This document shows, piece after piece, positions 6,727-62,324 of a stretch of DNA of 64,000 nt. The first letter of the stretch is position 1. Every line of letters starts with the position of its first letter. Under the pieces are notes generated by a model. It worked only from the letters and a program-made list of their open reading frames with translations. It was not told the DNA's origin and did not search any database. The position numbers and the translations under genes were made by a program. Source of the stretch: Pararhodobacter sp. (lineage in GTDB: Bacteria; Pseudomonadota; Alphaproteobacteria; Rhodobacterales; Rhodobacteraceae); NCBI GenBank assembly GCA_020832665.1, contig JAFIEG010000001.1:60608-124607 (forward strand), in the 5' to 3' direction.

Positions 6727-7665
6727 ATGACCAGACCGCAATCCCTGGACGATCTCTATTCGCGCTTCGACGGCATGCACATGGAAGGCGGTTGGCATCG
6801 AAAGTTTCCGGCTCTCTGGCCGGTGCCCGAGGAAAATTTCCTTCCCTATGTCTGGCACTATGCCGAGGTCCATCCGGCACTTGATGCAGCTGGAGATCTG
6901 GTCAGCACCGAATTTGCCGAACGCCGGAACCTGACCATGCGCAACCCCGCCGAGGGGAACCGCTATGCCACGGTTCGAACCTTGGTTGCTGCCTATCAGA
7001 TGGTCAAACCCGGCGAGATCGCAAAGTCGCACAGGCATACCCCCAATGCGCTGCGGTTGATTCTGGACGGGCAGGGCACCACGACCACCGTTGACGGCAA
7101 ACGGGTCAATATGCGCCCGGGCGATGTTCTTCTTACCCCGAACTGGGCATGGCACGCGCATGAAAACGCGGGCACCGAAGATTGCTATTGGCTGGACTTC
7201 CTTGACGTTCCGGCGGTGCATTTGCTCGAGCCAATGTTCTTCGAACGCCACCCCGACGGGCTGGAAGACGTTGTTGAGGACGTCGAGAACTCGCCCATCG
7301 CCTTCCGCTGGGAGGACAGTCTTGCGAGCTTGGGGCGCAGCACGGACGACGCGGGCGGGCTTTGTGCCGCGCAGATCGAAATGGGAAGCCCGGCGCTGGA
7401 AACTATCGGGCTCTACATGCAGAGGTTGGCGGCCGGTTCGACCAAGGCAATGCGGACCACGGCCAACAGCCTTTTTGCAGTGATCGAAGGGCAAGGCCAG
7501 ACTGTGGTTGGTGACGTTGCCCTGCCTTGGGCGCGTGGCGATGTCATCGCCGTTCCTGCATGGCGTGCCTATCGACACGAAGCCGGTGGCGATGCTGTCC
7601 TGCTGCGCGTCACGGACAAACCGATCTTCGAAAAACTGGGCTGGCTGCGCGAAGAGATCGCCTGA
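6727..7665 (+). CDS. gentisate 1,2-dioxygenase-like bicupin (copy 1)
   Basis: 312 aa from MTRPQSLDD; LVAAYQMVKPGEIAKSHRHTPNALRLILDG, WHAHEN metal ligands, second cupin. Confidence 0.85.
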   Translation: MTRPQSLDDLYSRFDGMHMEGGWHRKFPALWPVPEENFLPYVWHYAEVHPALDAAGDLVSTEFAERRNLTMRNPAEGNRYATVRTLVAAYQMVKPGEIAKSHRHTPNALRLILDGQGTTTTVDGKRVNMRPGDVLLTPNWAWHAHENAGTEDCYWLDFLDVPAVHLLEPMFFERHPDGLEDVVEDVENSPIAFRWEDSLASLGRSTDDAGGLCAAQIEMGSPALETIGLYMQRLAAGSTKAMRTTANSLFAVIEGQGQTVVGDVALPWARGDVIAVPAWRAYRHEAGGDAVLLRVTDKPIFEKLGWLREEIA

Positions 7666-7695
7666 TCGCCGCCGATACAAAAGGGTTTCCTGTCC

Positions 7696-8895
7696 ATGTC
7701 CCAACCCCGCCCTGTCCTGATCGCCGGCTCCGGAATAGGCGGTGCCGCCGCGGCGCTGGCTTTGCTGAAAAGAGGCTTTGATGTTGAAGTCTATGAACAG
7801 GCCCCCGCGCTGACCGAAGTTGGCGCGGGGGTGCAGATCAGCCCCAACGGTGCCCGTGCGCTGGATTCCCTGGGCGTGTTCCAGCACCTCAGCGAGTTGT
7901 CGTGCAAGCCAGAGAAAAAGCAGTTCCGACTTTGGAACACAGGCCGTGCCTGGCCGATGTTCGATCTGGGCGATGCTGCCCTTGCGCGCTATGGCTATCC
8001 ATACCTGACCGTTTATCGGCCCGATCTTCTGGATGTCCTCGTCGAAGGTGTGCGCAGGATAAAACCTGACGCCGTGCATCTGGGAAAACGTGCCACGGGT
8101 TATACCCAAGACCCGGATGGCATGACACTATATCTTGACGACGGCTCAACCGTGCAAGGCACGGCGCTGATTGGCGCGGACGGGGTGCGGTCCACAATCC
8201 GTGAGCAGATGTGGGGCGGGGAAAAACCTGCGTTCTCGGGCATGGTGACATGGCGCGCGGTGATCCCGATGGAGACACTGCCGGATCATTTGCAGGCCAT
8301 GATTGGCAACACATGGATTGGGCCGGGCGGCCACGTGGTGACCTATCCGTTGCGCGGTGCCAAACTGCTGAACTTCGTCGCAACCATCGACCGCTCGGAC
8401 TGGCAGGAAGAAGGTTGGAACATCCCCGGCACGCCCGAGGAATGCGCTAACGATTTCAAGGGCTGGCACCCTGACATCCACGCAATCATCGCCTGTGCTC
8501 CGGCCTTGTTGAAATGGGCGCTGATGGTCCGTGATCCGATGCCGGCCTGGACACAAGACCGTGTCACCCTGTTGGGTGATGCCTGTCACCCGACGTTGCC
8601 TTTTCTGGCGCAAGGCGCCGTAATGTCGATCGAGGATGGGGTGGTTCTGGCCCGCTGTCTGGAAGCCACTGGTGGGGACATGGCCGCTGGGTTCGCACGC
8701 TACGAGGCCGCGCGGATCGACCGCACCAGCCGGATGGTTCTTGGCGCCCGCGATAATACCGACCGGTTCCACAGCAGCGAGTTGGGCACCGAGGAGGGTG
8801 CACAAGCCTATCTGGAACGCGAATGGGGTCGCGCACCGATCCGTGAGCGTTACCACTGGCTCTATGATTATCAGGCCGACACTGTCGCCATCTGA
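7696..8895 (+). CDS. FAD-dependent aromatic monooxygenase (3-hydroxybenzoate 6-hydroxylase/salicylate hydroxylase type)
   Basis: 399 aa; GSGIGGAAAALALLKRGFDVEVYEQA, GADGVRSTIRE, VTLLGDACHPTLPFLAQGAVMSIEDG. Confidence 0.88.
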   Translation: MSQPRPVLIAGSGIGGAAAALALLKRGFDVEVYEQAPALTEVGAGVQISPNGARALDSLGVFQHLSELSCKPEKKQFRLWNTGRAWPMFDLGDAALARYGYPYLTVYRPDLLDVLVEGVRRIKPDAVHLGKRATGYTQDPDGMTLYLDDGSTVQGTALIGADGVRSTIREQMWGGEKPAFSGMVTWRAVIPMETLPDHLQAMIGNTWIGPGGHVVTYPLRGAKLLNFVATIDRSDWQEEGWNIPGTPEECANDFKGWHPDIHAIIACAPALLKWALMVRDPMPAWTQDRVTLLGDACHPTLPFLAQGAVMSIEDGVVLARCLEATGGDMAAGFARYEAARIDRTSRMVLGARDNTDRFHSSELGTEEGAQAYLEREWGRAPIRERYHWLYDYQADTVAI

Positions 8896-49022: not shown

Positions 49023-49889
49023 TCATGCCTTCGCCGCCTGCCCGGCAACCTCATCGGTATCGCCGCGCGCGCGCCGGGCGGCGAATGCGGCATCGCTCCA
49101 GCCCTCATTGGCGGCGACGTGATCCCATGCCAGCCCGGCCTGTTCCAGCTTATAGGCGATTTCGGCCAGATCCTCGGCCGAAGGCTTGCCGATGCCGCGT
49201 GCCGAACCGGGCGGCAGGCCGGCACCGGCGGGCAATTCCTGAACCTTGGCACCGCCGCGCGCCTGCTCGACCCCCAGCCACATTATGCGGCCAAGATGCT
49301 CATAGGCGCGATTGAGGCCATGTTCGCTGCAGGCCTTTTCCAGATCGCGCAGGAAGGGCGTGATCCAGCGCGCCGGGTAGCGGGCGATGAAGGCTTCGGC
49401 CTCGGACAGATAGGCGCGCGCCTCGATATCCTTGCCCGCCATGGCGTGATCGCCGGCGCGGGCATAGAGGAAGGCCAGCATTTCCAGTTGCAGCGGCACG
49501 GTGTCGTGGAAATCGCGAAGGGTTTCGCTTTTTTGCAGCCCGTGGCGGGCGATAAAGGCGCGCAACTCCTGCTCGATCTGGCCGGTCTTGCCGCCCTCCA
49601 TGTAGAAGCCGGCATTCAGCATCACCGGCGTGGGCGGCGCCAGGAACAGCCTGGAATAGAGCCGCAGTAGATCGACCGGCGCGCCGATGGCGGCGGCGTC
49701 GCGGCGCAGCGCGGATATGTCTTCGCCCGCCATGAGGCCGATCTCGTCGCTGATTGCTTCCAGATCGTCGGCGAGGCTGGCGGTAAAGGCCTGGTGGAAC
49801 TCGTCGCCTTGCGGTTGGCCGAAGGCGCGCGCCAGGCACAGCCAGAAATCGCGCCGGGAATGGCTTGTCGCCGCGAGGTTGTCGGTCAT
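49023..49889 (-). CDS. arxD: TorD/DmsD-family chaperone (ArxD-like)
   Basis: SRRDFWLCLARAFGQP, YSRLFLAPPTPVMLNAGFYMEG, ETLRDFHDTVPLQLEMLAFLYARAG; adjacent to Mo enzyme operon. Confidence 0.75.
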   Translation of the reverse strand: MTDNLAATSHSRRDFWLCLARAFGQPQGDEFHQAFTASLADDLEAISDEIGLMAGEDISALRRDAAAIGAPVDLLRLYSRLFLAPPTPVMLNAGFYMEGGKTGQIEQELRAFIARHGLQKSETLRDFHDTVPLQLEMLAFLYARAGDHAMAGKDIEARAYLSEAEAFIARYPARWITPFLRDLEKACSEHGLNRAYEHLGRIMWLGVEQARGGAKVQELPAGAGLPPGSARGIGKPSAEDLAEIAYKLEQAGLAWDHVAANEGWSDAAFAARRARGDTDEVAGQAAKA

Positions 49890-49986: not shown

Positions 49987-51174
49987 TCAGGCGGTTGCTT
50001 CGCGGCCGCTGGCTGCCGGCAGATCGTCGGGCATGGCCGAGAGGTTGAGGAACCGCTCGCCCGCTGCGTAGAGCGCGAACAGCATCGCCGAGCCCATGAT
50101 TGTCAGTGCCCATTCAGTGAGCGAGGGCGTGTATTCGATAAGCCCCCATTCCCAGGTGCCGCGAAAGAGCGGCACTACCTGCCCGCCGACAACGAAGAAG
50201 TAGCGCTCGGCGAAGAGCCCGGCAAAGACCGCCATCGATACCAGCACCTGGATGCCCGCATTGGCGCGCAGCCCGGCGATGAGCATGATCACGAAGGGCA
50301 CCACGATCCCCAGCCAGAGCGAGGCCTGATAGACGGGCGAGGCGAACAGGTAATCACGCCACACCAGATAGATCTCGGGATTATTGGTGTAGAGCCCGGT
50401 GATAGCGCGCACTGCGATGAACAGCACTGTGCCGCCCAGCACCGCCGCGAACAGCCGCGGCAGCGAGCCCGCGAACATGGCGCGCATCGGCGCGGGCATG
50501 GCGGAGCGGTTGAAGCCATAGGCGAGGTAGGTGAAGAACACCACCGCCGCCAGCCCGCTGGCCACCGCCGTGAGGTAGAAGTAGATCGGCATCAGCCCGT
50601 CGAACCAGAAGGGCCGCATGCTCATCATGCCGAAGATGAGCGCCAGGTTGCCGCTGGCCAGCAGCACCGCCAGGAAGGACGCGATACCGATCTGGCGGCT
50701 GGTCTTGCTATCCCATTCCTTGCCTTCCATCTTCTGGAATTTCCACAGCAGGAACAGCAGATCGGCGATATAGAACACGCCCATCCAGAACATCGCCGAC
50801 TGGATCTGCATGTTCAGCGGCATCACCCAGAGCATGCGGAAGACATGGCCCAGCTCCATCGCCAGCACCGCCATCCCCGAGATCAGGATGATGAAGGCCA
50901 GGTAGATCGAGCGCTTGGCGAGCGGGTAGAACTGCTTGAAGCCGAATACCAGCGGCAGCGCGGCTATCATGCCCAGCCCCGAAGAAGCCAGCGCGAAGTA
51001 GAGATAGGTCGCGATCGGCTGGCCCCAGGGCATCTGCGACGAGGTGTTGAAGCTGCGATGGCCCACCGCCATCAGGTCCATCATCGCATAGGCGAAGGCG
51101 GCGATGGCCACACCCGCCGACACGATGAGCAAAAGGATGCCGAGCGGCCCCTTGAGGATGTTTCCGTTGTTCAT
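49987..51174 (-). CDS. arxC: NrfD/PsrC-type quinone-interacting membrane subunit (ArxC-like)
   Basis: 395 aa, multi-TM; codirectional with arxA/arxB-like genes. Confidence 0.8.
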   Translation of the reverse strand: MNNGNILKGPLGILLLIVSAGVAIAAFAYAMMDLMAVGHRSFNTSSQMPWGQPIATYLYFALASSGLGMIAALPLVFGFKQFYPLAKRSIYLAFIILISGMAVLAMELGHVFRMLWVMPLNMQIQSAMFWMGVFYIADLLFLLWKFQKMEGKEWDSKTSRQIGIASFLAVLLASGNLALIFGMMSMRPFWFDGLMPIYFYLTAVASGLAAVVFFTYLAYGFNRSAMPAPMRAMFAGSLPRLFAAVLGGTVLFIAVRAITGLYTNNPEIYLVWRDYLFASPVYQASLWLGIVVPFVIMLIAGLRANAGIQVLVSMAVFAGLFAERYFFVVGGQVVPLFRGTWEWGLIEYTPSLTEWALTIMGSAMLFALYAAGERFLNLSAMPDDLPAASGREATA

Positions 51175-51188
51175 CTCTCAGCCCTCCT

Positions 51189-51938
51189 TCAGCTGTCGGA
51201 CGGGGGATTGTAGGCGGGCACATCGGCGCCCGAGCCCAGGTAATAGACCTGTGGGCGGTTGCCGGTGTGATCGCGCAGGCGCACGCCGCGCTGATCGGCG
51301 ATCAGCCGGTTGACCTCGGATTCGGGGTTGTCCAGATCGCCGAAATAACGCGCCTTGGGCGGGCAGGTGCGCACGCAGGCGGGCACGTATTCCTTGGTTT
51401 CCGGGTTGTCCTCGTCCAGGTCGGCCACGCCTTCGGGCGCCTGGCTGACCTTGTGGTAGCAAAAGGTGCATTTCGACACCACGCCCTTGGGCTGGATGCC
51501 GATGCCGCGCCGCGCGTCGCTTTCGGGGCTTTGATAGGGCGGCGCCCAGAGTTGCCCCTCGCCCGGGAACACGTCGCGCACATCGGGTTCCACCACTGGC
51601 TGCTCGTCGGCATAGAAGCGCACGCCATAGGGGCAGGCGATCATGCAGTACTTGCAGCCGATACATTTGTTCCAGTCAACAAAGACGATGCCGCCGGCAT
51701 CCATGTCCTTGTAGGTGGCGCGTGTCGGGCAGACCGTCACGCAAGACGGGTTCTCGCACTGCATGCATGGCCTTGGCAGCCATGTCAGCTTGGCGGTCGG
51801 ATAGGTGCCCTCGTGATAAAACAGCACGTCCTGCCAGTTCTCGCCGGGCAGGGTGTTGTTTTCCATCGCGCAGGCGGTCGTGCAGGCCTGACAGCCGGTG
51901 CACTTGTCCAGGTCGATGACCATTCCCCATTTCGTCAT
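51189..51938 (-). CDS. arxB: four-[4Fe-4S] electron-transfer subunit (ArxB-like)
   Basis: CTGCQACTTAC, CMQCENPSCVTVCP, CIGCKYCMIACPYGVR, CTFCYHK..CVRTCPPKAR. Confidence 0.85.
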   Translation of the reverse strand: MTKWGMVIDLDKCTGCQACTTACAMENNTLPGENWQDVLFYHEGTYPTAKLTWLPRPCMQCENPSCVTVCPTRATYKDMDAGGIVFVDWNKCIGCKYCMIACPYGVRFYADEQPVVEPDVRDVFPGEGQLWAPPYQSPESDARRGIGIQPKGVVSKCTFCYHKVSQAPEGVADLDEDNPETKEYVPACVRTCPPKARYFGDLDNPESEVNRLIADQRGVRLRDHTGNRPQVYYLGSGADVPAYNPPSDS

Positions 51939-51967: not shown

Positions 51968-54517
51968 TCAGGCCCGCTCCAGGGTGACCTTGCCGGTGTA
52001 ATAGCTGGCCAGCCCCGAGATTGGGTCGGATACGTTTGCGGTGACATCGCCGGAATGGCCCGGCAGGCGCCCCTTGGCCCAGCGGCCCTGCGCCCAGTGG
52101 CCGTGCTCCATCGGCAGCACGATTGTGTCGCGCCGGTGCGCCGGCACCAGGCGGCAATAGGCCTCGATCGAGCCGATATCCGAGCGGATGCGCACGCGGT
52201 CGCCATCACGGATGCCGCGAGCGCGCGCGGTGTCGGGGTGAACTTCCAGGTAAACGGTGTTCTTGCCGCCCACCATGGGCTGGTGAATGGCGATGCCGTG
52301 CGGGATGTTGCCCGAGCGGCCCTCGGCATGCATCGGTGTTTTCGGCGAGACGAAGTAGAGATCGCCCGCGCCGCCGGTATGCACCGGCTCCACCCACTGG
52401 ATCAGCCCCACGCGATCAGCCGGGATGCCCATTTCGCGCTCGATGTAGTCGGCGTGCTGCTCCAGAAAGCCCGAGCGAAACTCGAACTTGCCCGAGGGCG
52501 TGCGCAGAAGCTTCTGCTTCACCTCCTCCTCGGTCATCTCGATATTGTAGCCCTCGCCGTCCCATTCGTAGAACTTCCCGCGGCGGTGGTGCCAGTGATA
52601 GGGCTTGCGGTACCACACGCCCTTTTCGGCCCAGCTTTCAAAGCTGTTCACGCCATTGTCGCCGGGGTTGTCCTCGAAGCCGCGGGCGCGGTGGCGCAGC
52701 ACGTTCTCGACATTGTCGATCTCGCGATAATACTCGCCCATCGGCCCGTCGATGCGCTTGCCGATCTCGATCAGCGTATCGCCGAAATGCTTGGTGTCAT
52801 AGATCGGGTCCACTGCCGGGACGCGCAGGGCGGTCATCGGCCAGCCTTCGAACGGATAGGTCGGGCTGTCCTGCCAGCGTTCCAGATAGGTGTGATCGGG
52901 CAGGATGATGTCGGCGTACATCGCCGTCTCGCCGGGGAAGGGCGAGGTTTCGATGATGAACACATCCTTGAGCGCCTCTTCCCAGACCTGCGGGTTGGGC
53001 GCCGTCCAGATCGGGTTGGTGTAGTAGAACATGGCGGTGTCGAGCTTGTAGGGATCGCCCGCCAGATGGTTCGGACCGGCCTCCTGCATCATGTGGGCGG
53101 TCATCGGCCAGCGCTCGGTGCGCGCCATGTCGATGCGCGGTTGTTCCTTCCAGGCGCCGTCGCGCGCCCAGTCGTCCAGGTAGTCATCGGCATTCACCGG
53201 CAGCCCGCCATAGGGCACGCCCATCTGGTAGAACATCCCGCCACGTTCGGCGAACAGGCTGCCCACCAGCGCGTTGAGCGCGTGAATGGCCATGCCGTTA
53301 TAGGTGCCATTGGTGTGCGAGGTGGGCCCGCGCTCCATGATTGCCATTGCCGGGCGGGTGGTGCCGAATTCGCGCGCAACGGCGCGGATGGTCGAGGCGG
53401 GCACCTCGGTAATGCTTTCGGCCCATTCCGGGGTACGGTCCTTCAGCTCCTCGTTCCACCAGTCCACCAGACCGTGGGTCCACAGCTCGACAAAGCCGCT
53501 GCCCTCGGCCGGCTGCGTGGTGACCTCGCCGGTCTCGGGGTCGGTCACGGCCATCTGCGCGGCGGCGCTGATGGTCTCGCCGGTGGCAAAATGGTTGCGG
53601 CCATCGGCGAAGTCGCCGACAAATTCGCGGTCCCACAGCCCCTCGGTAAGGATTACATGCGCAATGGCCAGCGCCATCGCGCCATCGGTGGCGGGCTTGA
53701 TATAGACCGCGCGGTCCGAGGCCGCCATGGTGGGGTTCATGCGCACATCGATGGTGGTGATGCGCGTCTGCGGGCTTTTCGAGCGCATCTTGCCCCACAT
53801 CTGCATCAGATAGTTGTAGGGGCGGAAGGCCTCCAGAAAGCTGGCGCCGAAATTCAGGATGTAGTTGGTGTTGGCGTAGTCATAGGAATTGTAGGAATCG
53901 TTGCCATCGGTGGCGCGCTTGGCGCGCTTCGAGCCTTCCGCGCACATCGAGGCATGGCCGATGGCCGAATTCGGCGTGCCGTACAGCTTGCCCCAGTCGC
54001 CATAGAGCCCGGCATCGGTGGGCCCCCAGCCGCGGCCGTAGAAATGCGCGAAGCGGTGGCTTTCGCCGCGCGCGCGCAGATCATTCAGCCGCTCGGCGAC
54101 GATATCCAGCGCCTCGTCCCAGCTGATCGGCACGAAGCCGGGGTCCTCGTCGCGGCCCTTGTTGGGGTTGGTGCGCCGCATGGGGCCGCGAAAGCGGTCT
54201 GGGTCATACAGGAAATAGGTGCCCAGATGGCCCTTGGGGCACAGCTTGCCGTTCGAGATCGGGTTGCCGACATCGCCATAGATCGCGTGCACCCGCCCGT
54301 CGGTGGTGTAGACATCAATGCCGCAGCGCGCCGGGCACTGGGCGCAGATGTTCTTGGTGATCCGCGTATTGGGCCGGCGCGCCTGCGCCTGCGCCGGGGC
54401 GGGCTCGCCGCGCGGGCCGTTCAGCCCAACGGTGACCGCCGCGGCGGTCAGCGCGCCGGTTGTCCCGGTGGTCGCCAGGAACCGCCTGCGGCTGATGCCG
54501 GTATTTGCCTTGTCCAT
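51968..54517 (-). CDS. arxA: Mo-bisMGD oxidoreductase catalytic subunit, Arx-type arsenite oxidase
   Basis: TAT signal SRRRFLATTG; CAQCPARC-X27-C cluster motif; FYGRGWG motif reported as characteristic of ArxA; arsenic-gene context. Confidence 0.82.
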   Translation of the reverse strand: MDKANTGISRRRFLATTGTTGALTAAAVTVGLNGPRGEPAPAQAQARRPNTRITKNICAQCPARCGIDVYTTDGRVHAIYGDVGNPISNGKLCPKGHLGTYFLYDPDRFRGPMRRTNPNKGRDEDPGFVPISWDEALDIVAERLNDLRARGESHRFAHFYGRGWGPTDAGLYGDWGKLYGTPNSAIGHASMCAEGSKRAKRATDGNDSYNSYDYANTNYILNFGASFLEAFRPYNYLMQMWGKMRSKSPQTRITTIDVRMNPTMAASDRAVYIKPATDGAMALAIAHVILTEGLWDREFVGDFADGRNHFATGETISAAAQMAVTDPETGEVTTQPAEGSGFVELWTHGLVDWWNEELKDRTPEWAESITEVPASTIRAVAREFGTTRPAMAIMERGPTSHTNGTYNGMAIHALNALVGSLFAERGGMFYQMGVPYGGLPVNADDYLDDWARDGAWKEQPRIDMARTERWPMTAHMMQEAGPNHLAGDPYKLDTAMFYYTNPIWTAPNPQVWEEALKDVFIIETSPFPGETAMYADIILPDHTYLERWQDSPTYPFEGWPMTALRVPAVDPIYDTKHFGDTLIEIGKRIDGPMGEYYREIDNVENVLRHRARGFEDNPGDNGVNSFESWAEKGVWYRKPYHWHHRRGKFYEWDGEGYNIEMTEEEVKQKLLRTPSGKFEFRSGFLEQHADYIEREMGIPADRVGLIQWVEPVHTGGAGDLYFVSPKTPMHAEGRSGNIPHGIAIHQPMVGGKNTVYLEVHPDTARARGIRDGDRVRIRSDIGSIEAYCRLVPAHRRDTIVLPMEHGHWAQGRWAKGRLPGHSGDVTANVSDPISGLASYYTGKVTLERA

Positions 54518-54569: not shown

Positions 54570-55676
54570 TCAGGCCCCGTAGGGCACTTGCTTGCGCCGC
54601 ATCAGCCCGAAGGCCGCGGCGGCAAGATCGTTGTCCTTGTGGCAGCCGTCGCAGATGCGCTGGCCTTCGCTCGGCGCGTAGCGGCGCAGGCATTGCGGGC
54701 ATTCGGCCATCGCCCGGCTGATCAGCGTTTCCGGCCCGGTATGGCTGCCTTGGCCGCGCCTGTGCAGCGCCAGCCCGCCGGCCACCTCGCAATCGCCGCA
54801 GTCCAGGCATTGCGCGGCATCGAAGACCAGCCGATCGGCGCTGGCTTCCTCATACAGGGTCAGCGCCCGGGTCGGGCACAGGCTGGCGGCGAGGCGCAGA
54901 TCGGGCTCGCCGGTCACCGCCAGTGCCGGGAAGAACTCGGCGGGCAGGTCGCCGGCGCCGTGCAGGGTGCGCAGATTTTCGCGCCTCGCCAGCAGCGCCG
55001 GCGCATCGACCTTGCCTGCAAAAGGCTGGGCGGTGGTGACACGGCTGCGATCGGGCGCCGGCGGGGGCGTGGTCAGTCGGCGGAAAAGCTGGCGGCGCGA
55101 ATAACCCTGCTGGCGGGGGCGGCTGGGTGGCGGTGCCGGCTGCGCGCGATCGAACGGCAGCGGCGCATCGATGACCAGAAGGTGCCCTGCGGCACGGCCA
55201 AGATGCGCCAGATCGCTTGCCACCGACTGCACGGTATCTGCCCAGGGCTGCGCGCACCCGCCCGAGGAGCAATCGGCGCACCAGCCGCGATCAACCAGAG
55301 TGACGCTCGCACCGGCTGCGAGCAGGCCCAGAAGCCGCGCCGCGCTGACCCCGCCCAGGCAGGGCACGATCTGCGCACCCTCTGCCCGGTCGGCCTTGGC
55401 GACGCGGCTGCATTCCAGCGTGGCGGATAGGGCATCATGCGACGGGCGCACGCCCGGCAGGTCCAGCGCGCCGGTCGGGCAGGACGCGACGCAGCGCGCG
55501 CAGCCGGTGCACAGGTCGTGATCGATCTCGACCGCGCGCGTGTCGATGCCGATGGCCTGCGCCGGACAAATCGCCGCGCAGGCCTCGCAGCCCGCATCGG
55601 GGCGGCGGATCGTCAGGCAGGCCGCCGCATCCAGCGACAGCCTCGCCGGCAGGTCCTGATCTCCATGCTCGCGCAT
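54570..55676 (-). CDS. multi-[4Fe-4S] ferredoxin-like protein preceding arxA (ArxB'-like)
   Basis: CEACAAICPAQAIG, CTGCARCVASCPTGAL, CLDCGDC, CPQCLRRY/CDGCHKD; start MREHGDQD. Confidence 0.7.
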   Translation of the reverse strand: MREHGDQDLPARLSLDAAACLTIRRPDAGCEACAAICPAQAIGIDTRAVEIDHDLCTGCARCVASCPTGALDLPGVRPSHDALSATLECSRVAKADRAEGAQIVPCLGGVSAARLLGLLAAGASVTLVDRGWCADCSSGGCAQPWADTVQSVASDLAHLGRAAGHLLVIDAPLPFDRAQPAPPPSRPRQQGYSRRQLFRRLTTPPPAPDRSRVTTAQPFAGKVDAPALLARRENLRTLHGAGDLPAEFFPALAVTGEPDLRLAASLCPTRALTLYEEASADRLVFDAAQCLDCGDCEVAGGLALHRRGQGSHTGPETLISRAMAECPQCLRRYAPSEGQRICDGCHKDNDLAAAAFGLMRRKQVPYGA

Positions 55677-55765
55677 GTTTCCCCCCTGGCTGGAATCCGG
55701 CGCTGCCCGCTTTTGCGAGTTTCCCCGGCCGGATTCTGGCTTTCCATGACAGGATAGGGCAGGTC

Positions 55766-55782
55766 GCATGCCAAGGCATGCC
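55766..55782. promoter_or_regulatory. palindromic element upstream of arxB'-like gene
   Basis: GCATGCC-AA-GGCATGC(C) on plus strand; minus strand also reads TTGGCATGCGACCTGC (sigma54-like GG-N10-GC). Confidence 0.4.
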
Positions 55783-55838
55783 GACGAGACATCAGCGGAC
55801 TCGAAGTAAGATACTGATTAAGCGTAGATTTTTACGGC

Positions 55839-55888
55839 GTTCGGATTTCCAGACAGACTACTCCGGGTCCTGTTCGGATTTCCGGACA
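55839..55888. promoter_or_regulatory. pair of 17-bp direct repeats upstream of arxB'-like gene
   Basis: GTTCGGATTTCCAGACA (55839-55855) and GTTCGGATTTCCGGACA (55872-55888), 33-bp period, one mismatch. Confidence 0.65.
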
Positions 55889-57126
55889 TCCGCGTCGGGG
55901 CGCTGCATGCCCAGCTTCTGCATCTTCTCCCAAAGCGTGGTGCGGCCGACGCCAAGCAGCCGTGCCGCGCCGCTCGTGCTGCCCTCGCTGCGGTCGAGCG
56001 CGCGCCGGATCTGCAGGCGCTCGGCCCGTTCGCGCGCCTCGGTGAGGGTAAGAAAACTCGTGTCCGGGGTAACCTGCGCCTCGGGGAAGAGATCGGTCGG
56101 CATGATCATCTCGCCCTGGGCCAGCGCCATCGCCTGCGCCAGCCGGGCGCGGATCTCGCGGCCGTTGCCGCGCCAGTCGTGGCGCAGGGCCAGCGCCTCG
56201 GCCTGGGCCGAGATGCCCTTGAGCGGCGTTGCCCGGCGCCGGTTCATGCCGTCGAACATGCGCGCAAGCATCCATAGCGCATCCTCGGGCCGCGCGCGCA
56301 GGGGCGGGATGGCCAGTGTCAGCGGGCTGAGGTGAAAGAAAAGGTCCGGGCGCAGCTTTGCCTGCGCGTCATCGCCATCGGTGGCGATCAGCCGCGGGCC
56401 ATCGCTGCCCGCCTCCCAGATCGCGGCGAGCAGTCTTGCCTGCACCGACTCGCGCGCCTCGCCAATGCGCTCGATCAGCACGACACCGTCGCCGGCCTGC
56501 CGCCAGGCCGCGCCGGGGCCGAAGAGCCGTGCTTCGTGCTCGCCGGCCTCGATCCGCGACAGATCGAGCGCGACGAGTGGCGCGGCCGAGCGATCCGAGC
56601 GCGCATGCAGCCGCTCGGCGGCGGCGCGCTTGCCGGTGCCGCTTTCCCCGACAATCAGCACCGGCCCTTCCTGCGCGGCAAGGCGGGCGATCATCTCCTC
56701 GATCTGGCGCGCCTGTTTCGAGGGGCCGAACAGCGGCCCGTCGCTTTCGAACCCCGGCGCGATCAACAGCGACAGCCGCTCAAGCATCTGGCCCATGTCA
56801 AAGGGCTTGGTCAGGTAATCAGCCGCGCCTGAGCGCAAGAGCCGCACCGCCTGGTCGGCGCTGGCCTGCCCGGTCATGAACATGAAAGGCGGCGGCACCG
56901 AGGTTTCGCACAGCTTCAGAAACAGATCCTCGCCCGAGCCATCGCCCAGCCGGATATCGCAGATCACCGCATCGAAGGGGCGGTGCGGGGTGCGCAGCCC
57001 CCCCAGCGCGCGGTGAAAGCTCTTGAACCAGACCACGCGCGCCCCTTCCAGCCGCAGCCGCTGTTCGAGCGAGCCGCCCATGATCTCGTCATCCTCGACG
57101 AGCGCGATGTGGCGCCCTTCAAGCAT
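55858..57126 (-). CDS. arxR: NtrC-family response regulator (ArxR-like) lacking GAFTGA
   Basis: REC domain (EDDEIM, CDIRLGDG, YLTKPFD), Walker A GESGTGKR, Fis-type HTH GAARLLGVGRTTLWEKMQKLG. Confidence 0.8.
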   Translation of the reverse strand: MLEGRHIALVEDDEIMGGSLEQRLRLEGARVVWFKSFHRALGGLRTPHRPFDAVICDIRLGDGSGEDLFLKLCETSVPPPFMFMTGQASADQAVRLLRSGAADYLTKPFDMGQMLERLSLLIAPGFESDGPLFGPSKQARQIEEMIARLAAQEGPVLIVGESGTGKRAAAERLHARSDRSAAPLVALDLSRIEAGEHEARLFGPGAAWRQAGDGVVLIERIGEARESVQARLLAAIWEAGSDGPRLIATDGDDAQAKLRPDLFFHLSPLTLAIPPLRARPEDALWMLARMFDGMNRRRATPLKGISAQAEALALRHDWRGNGREIRARLAQAMALAQGEMIMPTDLFPEAQVTPDTSFLTLTEARERAERLQIRRALDRSEGSTSGAARLLGVGRTTLWEKMQKLGMQRPDADVRKSEQDPE

Positions 57127-58546
57127 CGCGCCCCCCTTCGGCTGCGAGCGGCAGTTGCACGCGGATCTCGTTCAACCCTTCGGGCGAGCGCCCCAGGCTG
57201 ATCTGCCCGCCCATGCCCTGCACCAGCTCGCGCACCAGTCGCAGGCCGACGCCGCCACCCGGCTCGACCGGGGCATCCGACAGAAGCCTTGCGCGCAGGT
57301 GATCGGGCAGGCCGGGGCCGCTATCCTGTATGCCCAGCATGATCGCATCGTCCTCGCGCGCAAGGCGCAGGCCGATCTTGCCGCCATATCCGGCCGCCGC
57401 ACTGGCGTTGAGCAGCAGATTGAGCGCGATCTGGCGCACCGGGCCTGAAGGCAAGCCGTCGATGGCGCCCTCGGGCAGGGAAACCTGCCAGTGCAGATCC
57501 TGCCCGCGCCGTTCGGCCTCGGGGCGGATAAGCAGGCTCAGATCGTCGAAATCGGCGCGCGACAGCGCCGTGGCCTCGGGCGCGGCGCGGTGCGTGTCGA
57601 GCGTTGCGCGCACCACGTCGCGCATGTGCCGCAGGCCGCGATCCAGCAGATCGGCCGAGCTTTTCACCACATCGGCGCGTTCCGGATAGGTGCGCAGGGT
57701 GTCCACCGTATTCAACAGCCCGCCCAGCGGATTGTTGACCTCATGCGCCAACGTGCCCGCCAGCCGCCCCAGGCTGACGAAACGCTCGCGCTCGGCCAGC
57801 CGCTTTACCGTTGCGTTGCGCTCTTCCACGGCATGAACAAGGCGGTTGTAGTTGTCGTAAAGCTGCGCGATTTCCGGATTGCGCCGGGGAATGGATTGCT
57901 CGGGGATGGGTTGCAGCCCGTCGGTGCCTTGCCCCATCGCGTTTGTCAGGCGCGCGATCGGGCGCAGGACGCGGCGCATCACCATGAACCCGACCAGCGC
58001 GGCAAAGAGCGAGGCCAGGGCATTGCCGATCACCAGGAAGGTGACCGTTCGCTCGCGTTCGGCGACAAAACCGGTGGTGTCGAAATCGATGATCAGCTTG
58101 CCGAGTGCACGCTCCTGATAATGCAGCACCTGTGACAGCGCGACTTCGCCATCGGCGAGATCGTAATGCTCGGCGGTGACCGATGTTGCCGCCGCGATCA
58201 TCTCGGTGCGCTGGGCGCCAATCGGGTGCAGCCGGGGATCGGATGACACGATGACCCGCCCCAGCGGATCGATCAGCGTGGCGCGAAGCGGGCGCAGCGA
58301 GCCCTCGCGGCGCGTCACGCGATCCAGCAGGTCGAACATTTCCCAGATGTCGTCGCGCACGACGAAGGGGCCGACCGTGGCCTCGATCCCGGCGAATTCC
58401 AGCAGCGCCATCTCGCGCAGATGGCGTTCCTGCGTGGCCACCAGCGTTCGCAGCACCAGTTGCGAGGCCAGCAGCCCGACAAGAACCAGAAGGCCCGCCG
58501 CCAGAAGCGGGCCTTTCACCATGATCGGTAGGTAGAGCGCGCGCAC
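57119..58546 (-). CDS. arxS: sensor histidine kinase (ArxS-like)
   Basis: two TMs and periplasmic loop, LAGTLAHEVNNPLGGLLNTVDTL H-box, LLNASAAAGYGGKIGL, DSGPGLPDHLRARL; start GTG 58546 or ATG 58522. Confidence 0.82.
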   Translation of the reverse strand: MRALYLPIMVKGPLLAAGLLVLVGLLASQLVLRTLVATQERHLREMALLEFAGIEATVGPFVVRDDIWEMFDLLDRVTRREGSLRPLRATLIDPLGRVIVSSDPRLHPIGAQRTEMIAAATSVTAEHYDLADGEVALSQVLHYQERALGKLIIDFDTTGFVAERERTVTFLVIGNALASLFAALVGFMVMRRVLRPIARLTNAMGQGTDGLQPIPEQSIPRRNPEIAQLYDNYNRLVHAVEERNATVKRLAERERFVSLGRLAGTLAHEVNNPLGGLLNTVDTLRTYPERADVVKSSADLLDRGLRHMRDVVRATLDTHRAAPEATALSRADFDDLSLLIRPEAERRGQDLHWQVSLPEGAIDGLPSGPVRQIALNLLLNASAAAGYGGKIGLRLAREDDAIMLGIQDSGPGLPDHLRARLLSDAPVEPGGGVGLRLVRELVQGMGGQISLGRSPEGLNEIRVQLPLAAEGGRDA

Positions 58547-58550
58547 CGGT

Positions 58551-59408
58551 TCAGCCCCGTTCCGCGACGATCCGCATGCGCGCCGCGATCCGCTCGAAGC
58601 TGTGCGCCTCGGGAAGGACGAAACCGTCGAGCTGCAGCATTGCCAGCGCCTGCTGCCCGGCATCGGTTCGCGGCATGGCTTCGAGCGCGGCCAGAAAGCG
58701 CTGGCTTTGCGCGGTTTCCAGGGCGTCGCGGGAAACGACGATCGGCGGGAAGCCGAAATCCTCGGATTCCCAGACGATGCGGGTCTGATCGACCAGCTCG
58801 GGCTCGTGGCGGCGCATGACATCCCAGACATAGCCATCCACGCTGCCCGATTGCGCGAGCCCGCGCGCCACGGCGCGCACCACGTTGCGATGGCCATAGG
58901 TGAAGAAGCTGCGCGCGAAGAACTCCTCGGGGCGGTGCTGGCGCCGCAGCAGTTCGGACAGGGTGACCAGATGGCCGGAATTGGAATCGGGGTCGGAATA
59001 GGCGTGGATATCGCCGCGCAGATCGCCCAGATCCTGCGCCGCGCGCCCCGCCGAGGTGATGACCCGCGAGCGGTAGAGCGGCGCGCCCTGCCACAGCGGC
59101 AGGGCCAGCGCGGCCAGCCGCTCGCGGTTTTGCAGCAGGGGAAAGCCGCACAGCCAGGCGGCATCGAGATCGCCCATCAGCAACAGGGCGGTGACTTCCT
59201 GATAGGTGCGTCGCTGCACGAATTCGATTGGCCGGCCCATCTCGGCGCGCAAATGGCTGCGCAGATGTTCCAAGAGTTGCCAGTCATTATCGAGAAAGAC
59301 CGGGGTCAGGCCAAAGCGGAACGCAGCCGGCTGCGCGCGCAGCACCGCCGGCGCGCCCAGCATCGAGGCCGTGAAGCCGGCCATGAACATTCGCCTTTTC
59401 AACCGCAT
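58551..59408 (-). CDS. arxX: PhnD-like periplasmic substrate-binding protein (ArxX-like)
   Basis: signal peptide; FRFGLTPVFLDNDWQLLEHLRSHLRAEMGRPIEFVQRRTYQEVTALLLMGDLDAAWLCGFP; directly upstream of kinase. Confidence 0.75.
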   Translation of the reverse strand: MRLKRRMFMAGFTASMLGAPAVLRAQPAAFRFGLTPVFLDNDWQLLEHLRSHLRAEMGRPIEFVQRRTYQEVTALLLMGDLDAAWLCGFPLLQNRERLAALALPLWQGAPLYRSRVITSAGRAAQDLGDLRGDIHAYSDPDSNSGHLVTLSELLRRQHRPEEFFARSFFTYGHRNVVRAVARGLAQSGSVDGYVWDVMRRHEPELVDQTRIVWESEDFGFPPIVVSRDALETAQSQRFLAALEAMPRTDAGQQALAMLQLDGFVLPEAHSFERIAARMRIVAERG

Positions 59409-59529
59409 GGCGGCAAGACGCGCCGGCCCGGCCCGGCCGGAGGGGTATTCGCGCACCATCGCATGCCTTCCATCGCATTTGCCTTGGGCAGGATATACCG
59501 GCGCGCAAATTCTTGTGCCTTGACCTGCG

Positions 59530-59928: not shown

Positions 59929-60775
59929 CAGTCTTTCGCAGCGGCACCATCAGCACCGGCCGGCGCGCGATTTCACACAGGGCGGCGGCGGTGGAGCCGA
60001 TCACCATGCTTTCCACCCAGTTCGCGCCATGCTTGCCCACGACAATGAGATCAGCATCGCGCTCGGCGGCCAGCCGGGCGATCTGCTCGGAGGGTTTGCC
60101 CTCGGCCAGATGCCGTTCGGCCTTGCCCCCGGCAGCTTCGATCTCATGCGCGAGGTTGTCGAGCGCGGCGCGCGCCATCACTTGCCAGCGCGTGTAGCGC
60201 CCGGCCTCGGCGGGGCTGATGACATGGACGATATCGACGACGCCGGCGCGCGGGGCCAGCATGGTTGCTGCCGCCTCGGCCGCGCGCGCATGGGGCGAGA
60301 AATCGCTGGCCAGAAGCATCCGGCGCAGCCCGGCATGGCAGGCGCGCTCGCACGCCTCCGCGCCATTGACCTCGATCCATTCCAGCCGCACCGGCAGCGT
60401 GCTTTTGCGGATCACCTCGCGCGCCACCGAGCCCAGGAACAACCCGCGCAGCATGGTCTGCCCGCGCGAGCCGATCACGATCAGATCGGCGCCATGATCG
60501 GCGGCGGCTTGCAGGATATCCGCCGCCACATCGCCGGCGGCGCGAATGTCGATCTCGACATCGAGCCCGGCCTCGCGCAAGGGCGCGGCGCGCGCGGCGA
60601 GCCACGCTTCCAGCGCCTCGCGGTTGGCGTATTCCGCGCCCTGGCCGTAACCCAGCCTGACGACATGCGCCAGAATCACGCGGGCCACGCCCATGTTGCG
60701 CAGATCGGACAGGCAGTCGATGAGCGGGCCCTGCGCGGCGGAATGGTCAAGCGCAATCAATGCCGTGCGAAACAT
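59921..60775 (-). CDS. universal stress protein (tandem UspA domains)
   Basis: [32 protein letters not shown] and [39 protein letters not shown] overlap with ACR3 gene. Confidence 0.88.
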
Positions 60776-61851
60776 CAGCTCTGTTCCTTCCTGCGCGGGG
60801 CGCGGATCGGGGTTTCCTCGGCCGGGAACCAGTGGCGCGTGCGGTTGGCAAACCACACCAGCGACAGCATCACCGGCACCTCGACCAGCACGCCCACCAC
60901 GGTGACCAGCGCGGCGATCGAGTTCAGCCCGAACAGACCGATGGCCACCGCCACCGCCAGCTCGAAAAAGTTCGAGGTCCCGATCATCGCGCAGGGCGCG
61001 GCCACCTTGTGCGGCACGCGCCATGCCCTGGCCGCCCAATAGGCCATGGCGAAGATCCCGTAGGACTGGATCAGCAGCGGAATCGCGATCATCACGATCA
61101 CCAGCGGCCGATCCAGGATCACCTCGCCCTGAAAGCCGAAAAGCAGCACCACCGTGGCCAGAAGCCCCACCACCGAGAACGGCTTCACCCGCGCCGTGAA
61201 GGCGGCCACCGTGGCCTCGCCCTCGGCCGGGTTGGCGGCATTGCGGGTCAGCCGCAGCCTTGTGATGACGCCGGCAATCAGCGGCACCACGATGTAAAGC
61301 ACCACCGACAGCACCAGTGTTTCCCAAGGCACGGTGATGTCGGTCACGCCCAGAAGCAGCGCCACGATGGGGGCGAAGGCAAAGATCATGATCACGTCAT
61401 TGAGCGACACCTGCACCAGCGTGTAGTTCGGATCGCCCTTGGTGAGCTGCGACCACACAAACACCATCGCCGTGCAGGGTGCGGCCCCCAGCAGGATCAT
61501 CCCGGCGATGTATTGCCCCGCCGTGCCCGGCTCGATGAAGGGCGCGAAGACGTATTCGAAAAACAGCACGCCAAGCGCGGCCATGGTGAAGGGCTTGATC
61601 AGCCAGTTCACCGTCAGCGTGATGATCAGCCCCTTGGGCCGTTCATGCACCCGCGCGAGCGAGGAGAAATCGACCCCCACCATCATCGGATAGACCATGA
61701 ACCAGATCAGGATGGCGACGACGAAATTGATCGAGCCGTATTCCAGCGCGGCAAGAAAGCCGACAAGCCCCGGCGCGATCTGGCCGATCGCGAGGCCGGC
61801 GATGATCGCCAGCGCCACCCAGACCGAGAGATAGCGTTCAAATGCGGACAT
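60775..61851 (-). CDS. ACR3-family arsenite efflux permease
   Basis: [60 protein letters not shown]. Confidence 0.92.
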
Positions 61852-61943
61852 TGGTTTTGCGGTATCCTTGCTTTGCGGCCTGTGTCAGGCGCGGGCGCCC
61901 CTGATGAAGCCGGGGCGGTTGCGGGGGTGCATCGGCTGCCGCA

Positions 61944-62324
61944 TCAAGTAGCGGCCTGTGCGGAACCGCCGCGTTGCGGAATGTAGCAGGCGGGGGGCTC
62001 GCCTTGCGGCGTTTCCCGCGCCTCGATCCGTCCGATCAGCGCGTGCAGGGGCGCCAGCGCCGCCGGGTCGAGCGAATAGCAGATCCGCGGCCGCTCGATG
62101 GTGCCGACAACCAGCCCCGAGGCCTTGAGAATGCGCAGATGCTCGGAAACCGTGGACTGCGCCAGCCCGATCTCGTCGACGATATCGCCGCCAATGCATC
62201 CCGGCCGCGACAGCAGCAGCGCGATGATCCGCACCCGCGCCGGATGCGCCAGCGCCCTGGCAACCGAGGCGATCTGCTTGGCATCCGGTGTCACCGAGGT
62301 TTCTTCCATGACGTCACCCGACAT
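61944..62324 (-). CDS. arsR: ArsR family metalloregulator
   Basis: LAHPARVRIIALLLSRPGCIGGDIVDEIGLAQSTVSEHLRILKASGLV. Confidence 0.88.
   Translation of the reverse strand: MSGDVMEETSVTPDAKQIASVARALAHPARVRIIALLLSRPGCIGGDIVDEIGLAQSTVSEHLRILKASGLVVGTIERPRICYSLDPAALAPLHALIGRIEARETPQGEPPACYIPQRGGSAQAAT

Follow-up and report, generated by a model that had tools for sequence, protein, structure and literature searches.

Loss of the sigma-54 contact loop in a Rhodobacterales AioR/ArxR clade and a probable switch of arsenite oxidation promoters to the housekeeping sigma factor

Introduction

How is an arsenite oxidation operon switched on when the regulator encoded next to it belongs to a family of sigma-54 activators and lacks the loop that contacts sigma-54? 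The locus that raises this question is located on contig C118, part of a Rhodobacterales genome of 4.19 Mb, in a stretch of 64,000 nucleotides that is analysed here as a whole and denoted the window. The genes arxX-arxS-arxR-arxB'-arxA-arxB-arxC-arxD follow each other in this order on the minus strand, all co-directional. ArxR is encoded after a PhnD-type X protein and a histidine kinase S, beside arxB2ABCD, the arrangement expected of an AioR/ArxR regulator of an XSR cassette.

58551-59459, minus strand: arxX, homologue of the PhnD-type periplasmic arsenite-binding protein (Pfam PF12974 and homology)
57119-58600, minus strand: arxS, sensor histidine kinase (approximate start; the open frame extends to 59164)
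55858-57126, minus strand: arxR, response regulator of 422 aa, with a receiver, an AAA+ domain without L1/GAFTGA, a lid and a Fis-type HTH
56467-56526, minus strand: site of the L1 deletion and degenerate Walker B (IER), residues 201-220 of ArxR, LFGPGAAWRQAGDGVVLIER
54570-55676, minus strand: arxB' (arxB2), 4Fe-4S protein, first structural gene
51968-54517, minus strand: arxA, molybdopterin arsenite oxidase subunit
51189-51938, minus strand: arxB, 4Fe-4S subunit
49987-51174, minus strand: arxC, NrfD-type membrane subunit
49023-49889, minus strand: arxD, TorD/NarJ-type chaperone

The arxB' gene starts with the ATG at 55674-55676, and a Shine-Dalgarno-like sequence is present upstream. Genes for an ACR3 arsenite efflux protein and an ArsR/SmtB regulator lie near the arx cluster (60775-62324), which makes this an arsenic island. 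The same genome encodes three more enhancer-binding proteins without GAFTGA (L003, L005 and L006, on C86 and C125), of the NtrC-like (Walker B IDG), NtrX-like and DctD-like types, and still carries one RpoN.

Results

ArxR lacks the GAFTGA loop and the Walker B acids

The Pfam domains of ArxR are Response_reg, Sigma54_activat, AAA_lid_14 and HTH_8, and the Sigma54_activat match is partial (53.5 bits, profile positions 2-117 of 168 only). In alignments with the PDB entries for NtrC1 and NtrC4, the gap falls exactly on the GAFTGA loop, and in a MAFFT alignment of 83 sequences, approximately 12 columns, those of L1, are absent from ArxR. Both approaches agree that ArxR contains no GAFTGA equivalent, as an earlier note on this DNA had proposed; its placement of the site is exact, residues 201-220 mapping to 56526-56467. 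The note had also described a good Walker A followed by a Walker B in which LDE became IER, and both features are seen in the 83-sequence alignment: Walker A is kept (GESGTGK), and Walker B reads VVLIERIG vs the canonical LFLDEIG, with the D-E pair changed to E-R. The receiver is intact. The predicted structure (mean pLDDT 87, pTM 0.55) retains the AAA+ fold and resembles the AAA+ domains of NtrC1 and PspF, with a TM-score of about 0.8 to NtrC1 by target length.

An artefact of sequencing, frameshift or assembly was ruled out as the source of the gap, because five further arx loci, all in other genera, have the identical deletion and the dN/dS of ArxR between the window and Alkalilacustris brevis is about 0.13. 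By this sequence-based measure, ArxR is under purifying selection.

The deletion marks a Rhodobacterales clade

The sampled loci comprise arx loci, Rhodobacterales relatives of ArxR, alphaproteobacterial aio loci and named plasmid records; some of them are MAGs, and phage records yielded generic NtrC-family matches only. L1 is deleted, and both Walker B acids are lost, in all 6 Rhodobacterales ArxR found and in all 28 aligned Rhodobacterales AioR of the main clade, whereas the GAFTGA-type loop and the Walker B D and E are kept in 27 of 27 beta- and gammaproteobacterial ArxR and in the 12 other alphaproteobacterial regulators scored. The Rhodobacterales clade shows no variation (34/34) in the receiver residues D/D/D/T/K or in the P-loop G..G.GK. 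Whether the deletion is specific to a lineage had been left to an alignment of homologues. It is linked to a lineage, although it is not peculiar to this ArxR, being common to the Rhodobacterales AioR/ArxR clade.

In a tree built with the trait columns removed, the Rhodobacterales set forms one clade (support 100/100), and ArxR falls within the alphaproteobacterial AioR group (100/99), the arx regulators nesting beside the AioR of roseobacters. The GAFTGA trait changes at least four times on the best tree, and well-supported branches alone require two changes. The Rhodobacterales relatives of ArxR are encoded directly upstream of aioBA, that is, as aioXSR-aioBA. On this phylogeny, the ArxR of the window originated in the Rhodobacterales AioR branch and is not a descendant of the gamma/beta ArxR.

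The enzyme has a different history. The closest arx relative of the window is that of A. brevis, with ArxA 95% identical; the ArxA of the window shares 79% identity with the protein of an Azoarcus MAG and about 64% with that of Cereibacter ORIO, but its ArxR is 65% identical to the Cereibacter ORIO protein and only about 36% identical to the Azoarcus one. Accordingly, we infer that a transferred arx operon came under the control of a locally descended XSR cassette of the aio type, a picture comparable to that reported for other taxa (PMC5908839). One AioXSR of the clade without GAFTGA (L174, G950:C107) comes from a genome without aioA; the next gene, on the opposite strand, encodes an ArsA-type ATPase, and a search of this locus for the operator palindrome found none.

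The loss of catalytic residues could also signal that the AAA+ domain of ArxR is decaying and the gene is becoming non-functional, and indeed Walker B, the arginine fingers and the neighbours of Walker A vary widely among the AioR members. Decay is nevertheless highly improbable and already disfavoured, given that conservation over dozens of genera extends to the receiver, P-loop, HTH, operator and promoter geometry and that dN/dS is about 0.11 in the AAA+ part.

The AioR operator is retained

AioX-AioS-AioR signalling and the AioR operator are known from published work, and the sequence GTTCGGATTTCCGAAC was identified by DNase I footprinting of the Agrobacterium AioR (PMC5335332). A de novo motif search recovered the matching palindrome GTTCGGANNTCCGAAC in alphaproteobacterial loci, with or without GAFTGA in the regulator, and GTTACCNNNNGGTAAC in beta- and gammaproteobacterial arx loci. 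Two such palindromes, with 1 and 2 mismatches to the consensus, are present in the window, along with an A-tract that, in the column profile, is conserved in position across the clade.

55872-55887, minus strand: distal operator GTCCGGAAATCCGAAC, within the last arxR codons
55839-55854, minus strand: proximal operator GTCTGGAAATCCGAAC, 33 bp from the distal operator
55829-55834, minus strand: A-tract just downstream of the operator

In a genome-wide scan with a relaxed consensus, the two operators of the window are the sole perfect match and one of five single-mismatch sites, so the ArxR regulon looks small. The recognition helix tracks the operator (HTH at approximately 55890-56040 of the window): RTTLWEKM occurs with GTTCGGA half-sites in Alphaproteobacteria, and RKNLWEKM with GTTACC half-sites in Beta- and Gammaproteobacteria.

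The -24/-12 element is rare where GAFTGA is missing

The sigma-54 promoter element was sought in the 250 bp that precede the first structural gene, with at least 9 of 11 matches and with GG and GC required. By this simple consensus count, as opposed to a trained matrix, the element was found at 34 of the 39 loci with a GAFTGA-bearing regulator (22/27 arx and 12/12 aio) vs 1 of the 35 loci without (0/7 arx and 1/28 aio), the loci in these counts not being phylogenetically independent. On the tree, two to three pairs of trait and promoter are independent; most agree and none disagree, a number too small for significance. At GAFTGA-bearing loci, the operator and -24 are between 48 and 116 bp apart, the distances differing in approximately helical steps.

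A published survey counts against the abandonment of sigma-54, since it reports -24/-12 elements in all 12 of the examined aioBA operons with aioXSR, from strains that include Rhodobacter sp. SW2 (PMC3834237). The window itself contains a degenerate candidate.

55758-55773, minus strand: -24/-12-like sequence TGGCATGCGACCTGCC, 8/11, possible relic

This is the best such site upstream of arxB' (shuffle p 0.10), located at a helically plausible offset of 81. It may be a relic, or it could still be used: the arx promoter would then remain dependent on sigma-54, with another, GAFTGA-bearing activator or a mixed oligomer containing ArxR acting in place of ArxR alone. GG and GC are correctly spaced, the site is common to A. 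brevis (L026) with a near-equivalent in L070, the offsets of 81-82 correspond to a phased position of sigma-54 loci, and RpoN is encoded in the genome. Continued use of sigma-54 is nonetheless quite unlikely considering the shuffle result, the lack of such a site at L019, L058 and L060 and at the aio loci of the clade, where TANNNT is invariant instead, and the lack of any other regulator linked to the arx locus.

The sequence TGGCATGCGACCTGCC and an inverted repeat, GCATGCC-TT-GGCATGC, overlap immediately upstream of the -10 element described below (55758-55781), and GGCATGC is found again in several arx promoters of Rhodobacterales.

A TANNNT element lies at a fixed distance from the operator

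55751-55756, minus strand: putative -10 element TATCCT, 98 bp from the start of the proximal operator, with a predicted transcription start near 55744

At 32 of 32 loci without GAFTGA in the discovery set, TANNNT (element consensus GCTAtcCT) is present 97-100 bp downstream of the proximal operator, against a mean of 0.87 and a maximum of 5 in 1000 shuffles. A new draw of genomes gave the same result at 15 of 15 usable loci, so that the combined count, from sequence only, is 47/47 (40/40 for non-redundant loci); at GAFTGA-bearing loci, TANNNT occurs at this distance in only 1 of 12. The spacer between operator and TANNNT is no more similar among the 40 non-redundant loci than background (identity 0.31 vs 0.285 expected), and the start codon follows TANNNT at anywhere between 31 and 82 bp, indicating that TANNNT follows the operator, not the gene.

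A first pass over the new loci had given 15/16; the operator initially assigned at L225, with four mismatches, was false, and the true one fits the spacing. Left out of the new-locus counts were L236, the same locus as L208, and L209, where an IS3 lies between the regulator and aioB; L237 and L240, with fused frames, were also set aside. At L241, where GAFTGA is degraded, the palindrome was sought and none was found. A weaker second conserved block, TTGCCGC..TGCaGC, occurs at offsets 45-60 from the operator start at many aio loci without GAFTGA.

Several loci outside the main clade bear on the association. L239, from the same GTDB family and with GAFTGA, has two operators and a 9/11 -24/-12 element, and no TANNNT at 97-100 bp. 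The L181 regulator lacks GAFTGA but keeps FLDEVA, and its locus contains no strong -24/-12 and has TAAACT at 99 bp. Neither L104 nor L198, both without GAFTGA, has a -24/-12 element, and on inspection L198 also has no TANNNT at 97-100 bp. The AioXSR-like cassette of L181 (G1018:C10) precedes neither aioBA nor arx but a gene for a sulfite-oxidase-family molybdoenzyme (PF00174 and PF03404), and two palindromes are located upstream of 7467-8801 on the minus strand; this could be a new target or an oxyanion system.

The column profile of the loci without GAFTGA shows no -35 consensus upstream of TANNNT, so the assignment to RpoD depends on the -10 element. Housekeeping -10 elements usually have TANNNT as their core. 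The missing -35 consensus would also suit recognition by an alternative factor of the sigma-70 family, such as a heat-shock or ECF factor, but the same profile contains no conserved ECF or RpoH -35 motif, and with a housekeeping core in the -10 we regard such a factor as unlikely.

The geometry also bears on the sign of regulation. In principle, the ArxR/AioR of the clade could be a repressor or anti-activator relieved by arsenite at an otherwise constitutive promoter, given that relatives without GAFTGA can repress, as Caulobacter NtrC does at CtrA-activated genes (PMC10274813). The core promoter, however, does not include the operators, which are found about 100 bp upstream of the -10, and the rigid spacing and the lack of a -35 consensus suit activation; repression is thus very unlikely.

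The reading that we prefer is that the Rhodobacterales AioR/ArxR clade, including the ArxR of the window, no longer uses sigma-54 and activates RpoD-dependent transcription at promoters of fixed spacing (probability roughly 0.82). The suggestion of the earlier note that arx may be controlled without sigma-54 thereby gains independent evidence in cis, because -24/-12 is gone upstream of the loci without GAFTGA and TANNNT is found at a fixed distance from the operator instead.

Discussion

A possible course of activation can be outlined for the window. By analogy with the family, ArxX and ArxS would phosphorylate the intact receiver of ArxR upon exposure to arsenite, and the Fis-type HTH of the phosphorylated protein would then bind 55872-55887 and 55839-55854, the predicted counterparts of the footprinted Agrobacterium site. 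The AAA+ domain most likely binds ATP without hydrolysing it and serves as a scaffold for oligomerisation, since the P-loop is kept, whereas the sigma-54 contact loop and both catalytic acids of Walker B are lost. Instead of remodelling a sigma-54 closed complex from a variable distance, ArxR would contact the RpoD-RNA polymerase; the predicted start lies about 103 bp downstream of the operator centre, and the rigid spacing between operator and -10 suggests a direct, phased contact that replaces enhancer looping. The conserved A-tract beside the operator may aid DNA bending.

With moderate confidence, we propose that an ancestral Rhodobacterales AioR/ArxR and the promoter it controls changed sigma factor jointly, apparently again in lineages such as that of L181. 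The sigma-54 loop and ATPase residues would have been lost and the operator kept, so that a flexible enhancer became one half of a rigid, phased pair and the AAA+ protein a class-I-like activator of the housekeeping polymerase.

The binding sites of Rhodobacter capsulatus NtrC are remote upstream. This regulator, which the earlier note had named as a precedent, works with RpoD and is reported to bind ATP without hydrolysis, as cited in PMC10274813 and PMC6925177, which agrees with its use as a precedent for a regulator without GAFTGA acting with the housekeeping sigma factor; the literature likewise describes the L1/GAFTGA deletion that it shares with the ArxR of the window, from the same bacterial order. 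It differs in controlling nitrogen, not arsenite, genes and in belonging to a different regulator family, so that GAFTGA was lost in parallel; for AioR/ArxR, the present analysis adds a constant 97-100 bp geometry that holds over tens of genera. Caulobacter NtrC and Vibrio VpsR are also enhancer-binding proteins without GAFTGA at sigma-70 promoters (PMC10274813), but in Caulobacter NtrC the Walker A and Walker B residues are still required, and VpsR reportedly does not need ATP.

Among the arsenite regulators, AioR of Agrobacterium/Pseudorhizobium (AioXSR) shares with the window the XSR order, the co-directional oxidase operon, the palindromic operator and the same receiver and HTH (42-45% identity to ArxR), but it has GAFTGA and LFLDEIG and is sigma-54-dependent; unlike the window, the NT-26 and A. 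tumefaciens promoters contain perfect (11/11) -24/-12 elements. ArxR of the beta/gamma type (that of A. ehrlichii) regulates the same arxB2ABCD enzyme (PMC5908839, PMC6683785) but retains GAFTGA and Walker B, has -24/-12, is usually divergent, and differs in the operator, GTTACCNNNNGGTAAC, and in the recognition helix, RKNLWEKM vs RTTLWEKM.

Thus, enhancer-binding proteins that work with sigma-70 without GAFTGA are already known, namely, R. capsulatus NtrC, Caulobacter NtrC and VpsR. For AioR/ArxR, a literature search found no report of such a mode of action, of a concomitant loss of the cis element or of a fixed operator to -10 geometry, and no report of a transcript start, binding or expression for any member without GAFTGA. 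Exact promoter coordinates are now available for testing, and dozens of genomes provide comparative material, including operators, promoters, intermediates and controls. What had been an isolated case, R. capsulatus NtrC, thereby becomes a general comparative question of how an AAA+ activator of sigma-54 turns into an activator of sigma-70. In existing descriptions, AioR and ArxR are regulators of the sigma-54 type and arsenite oxidation depends on RpoN; a large lineage of Alphaproteobacteria probably differs, its arsenite oxidation genes probably being switched on by the housekeeping machinery.
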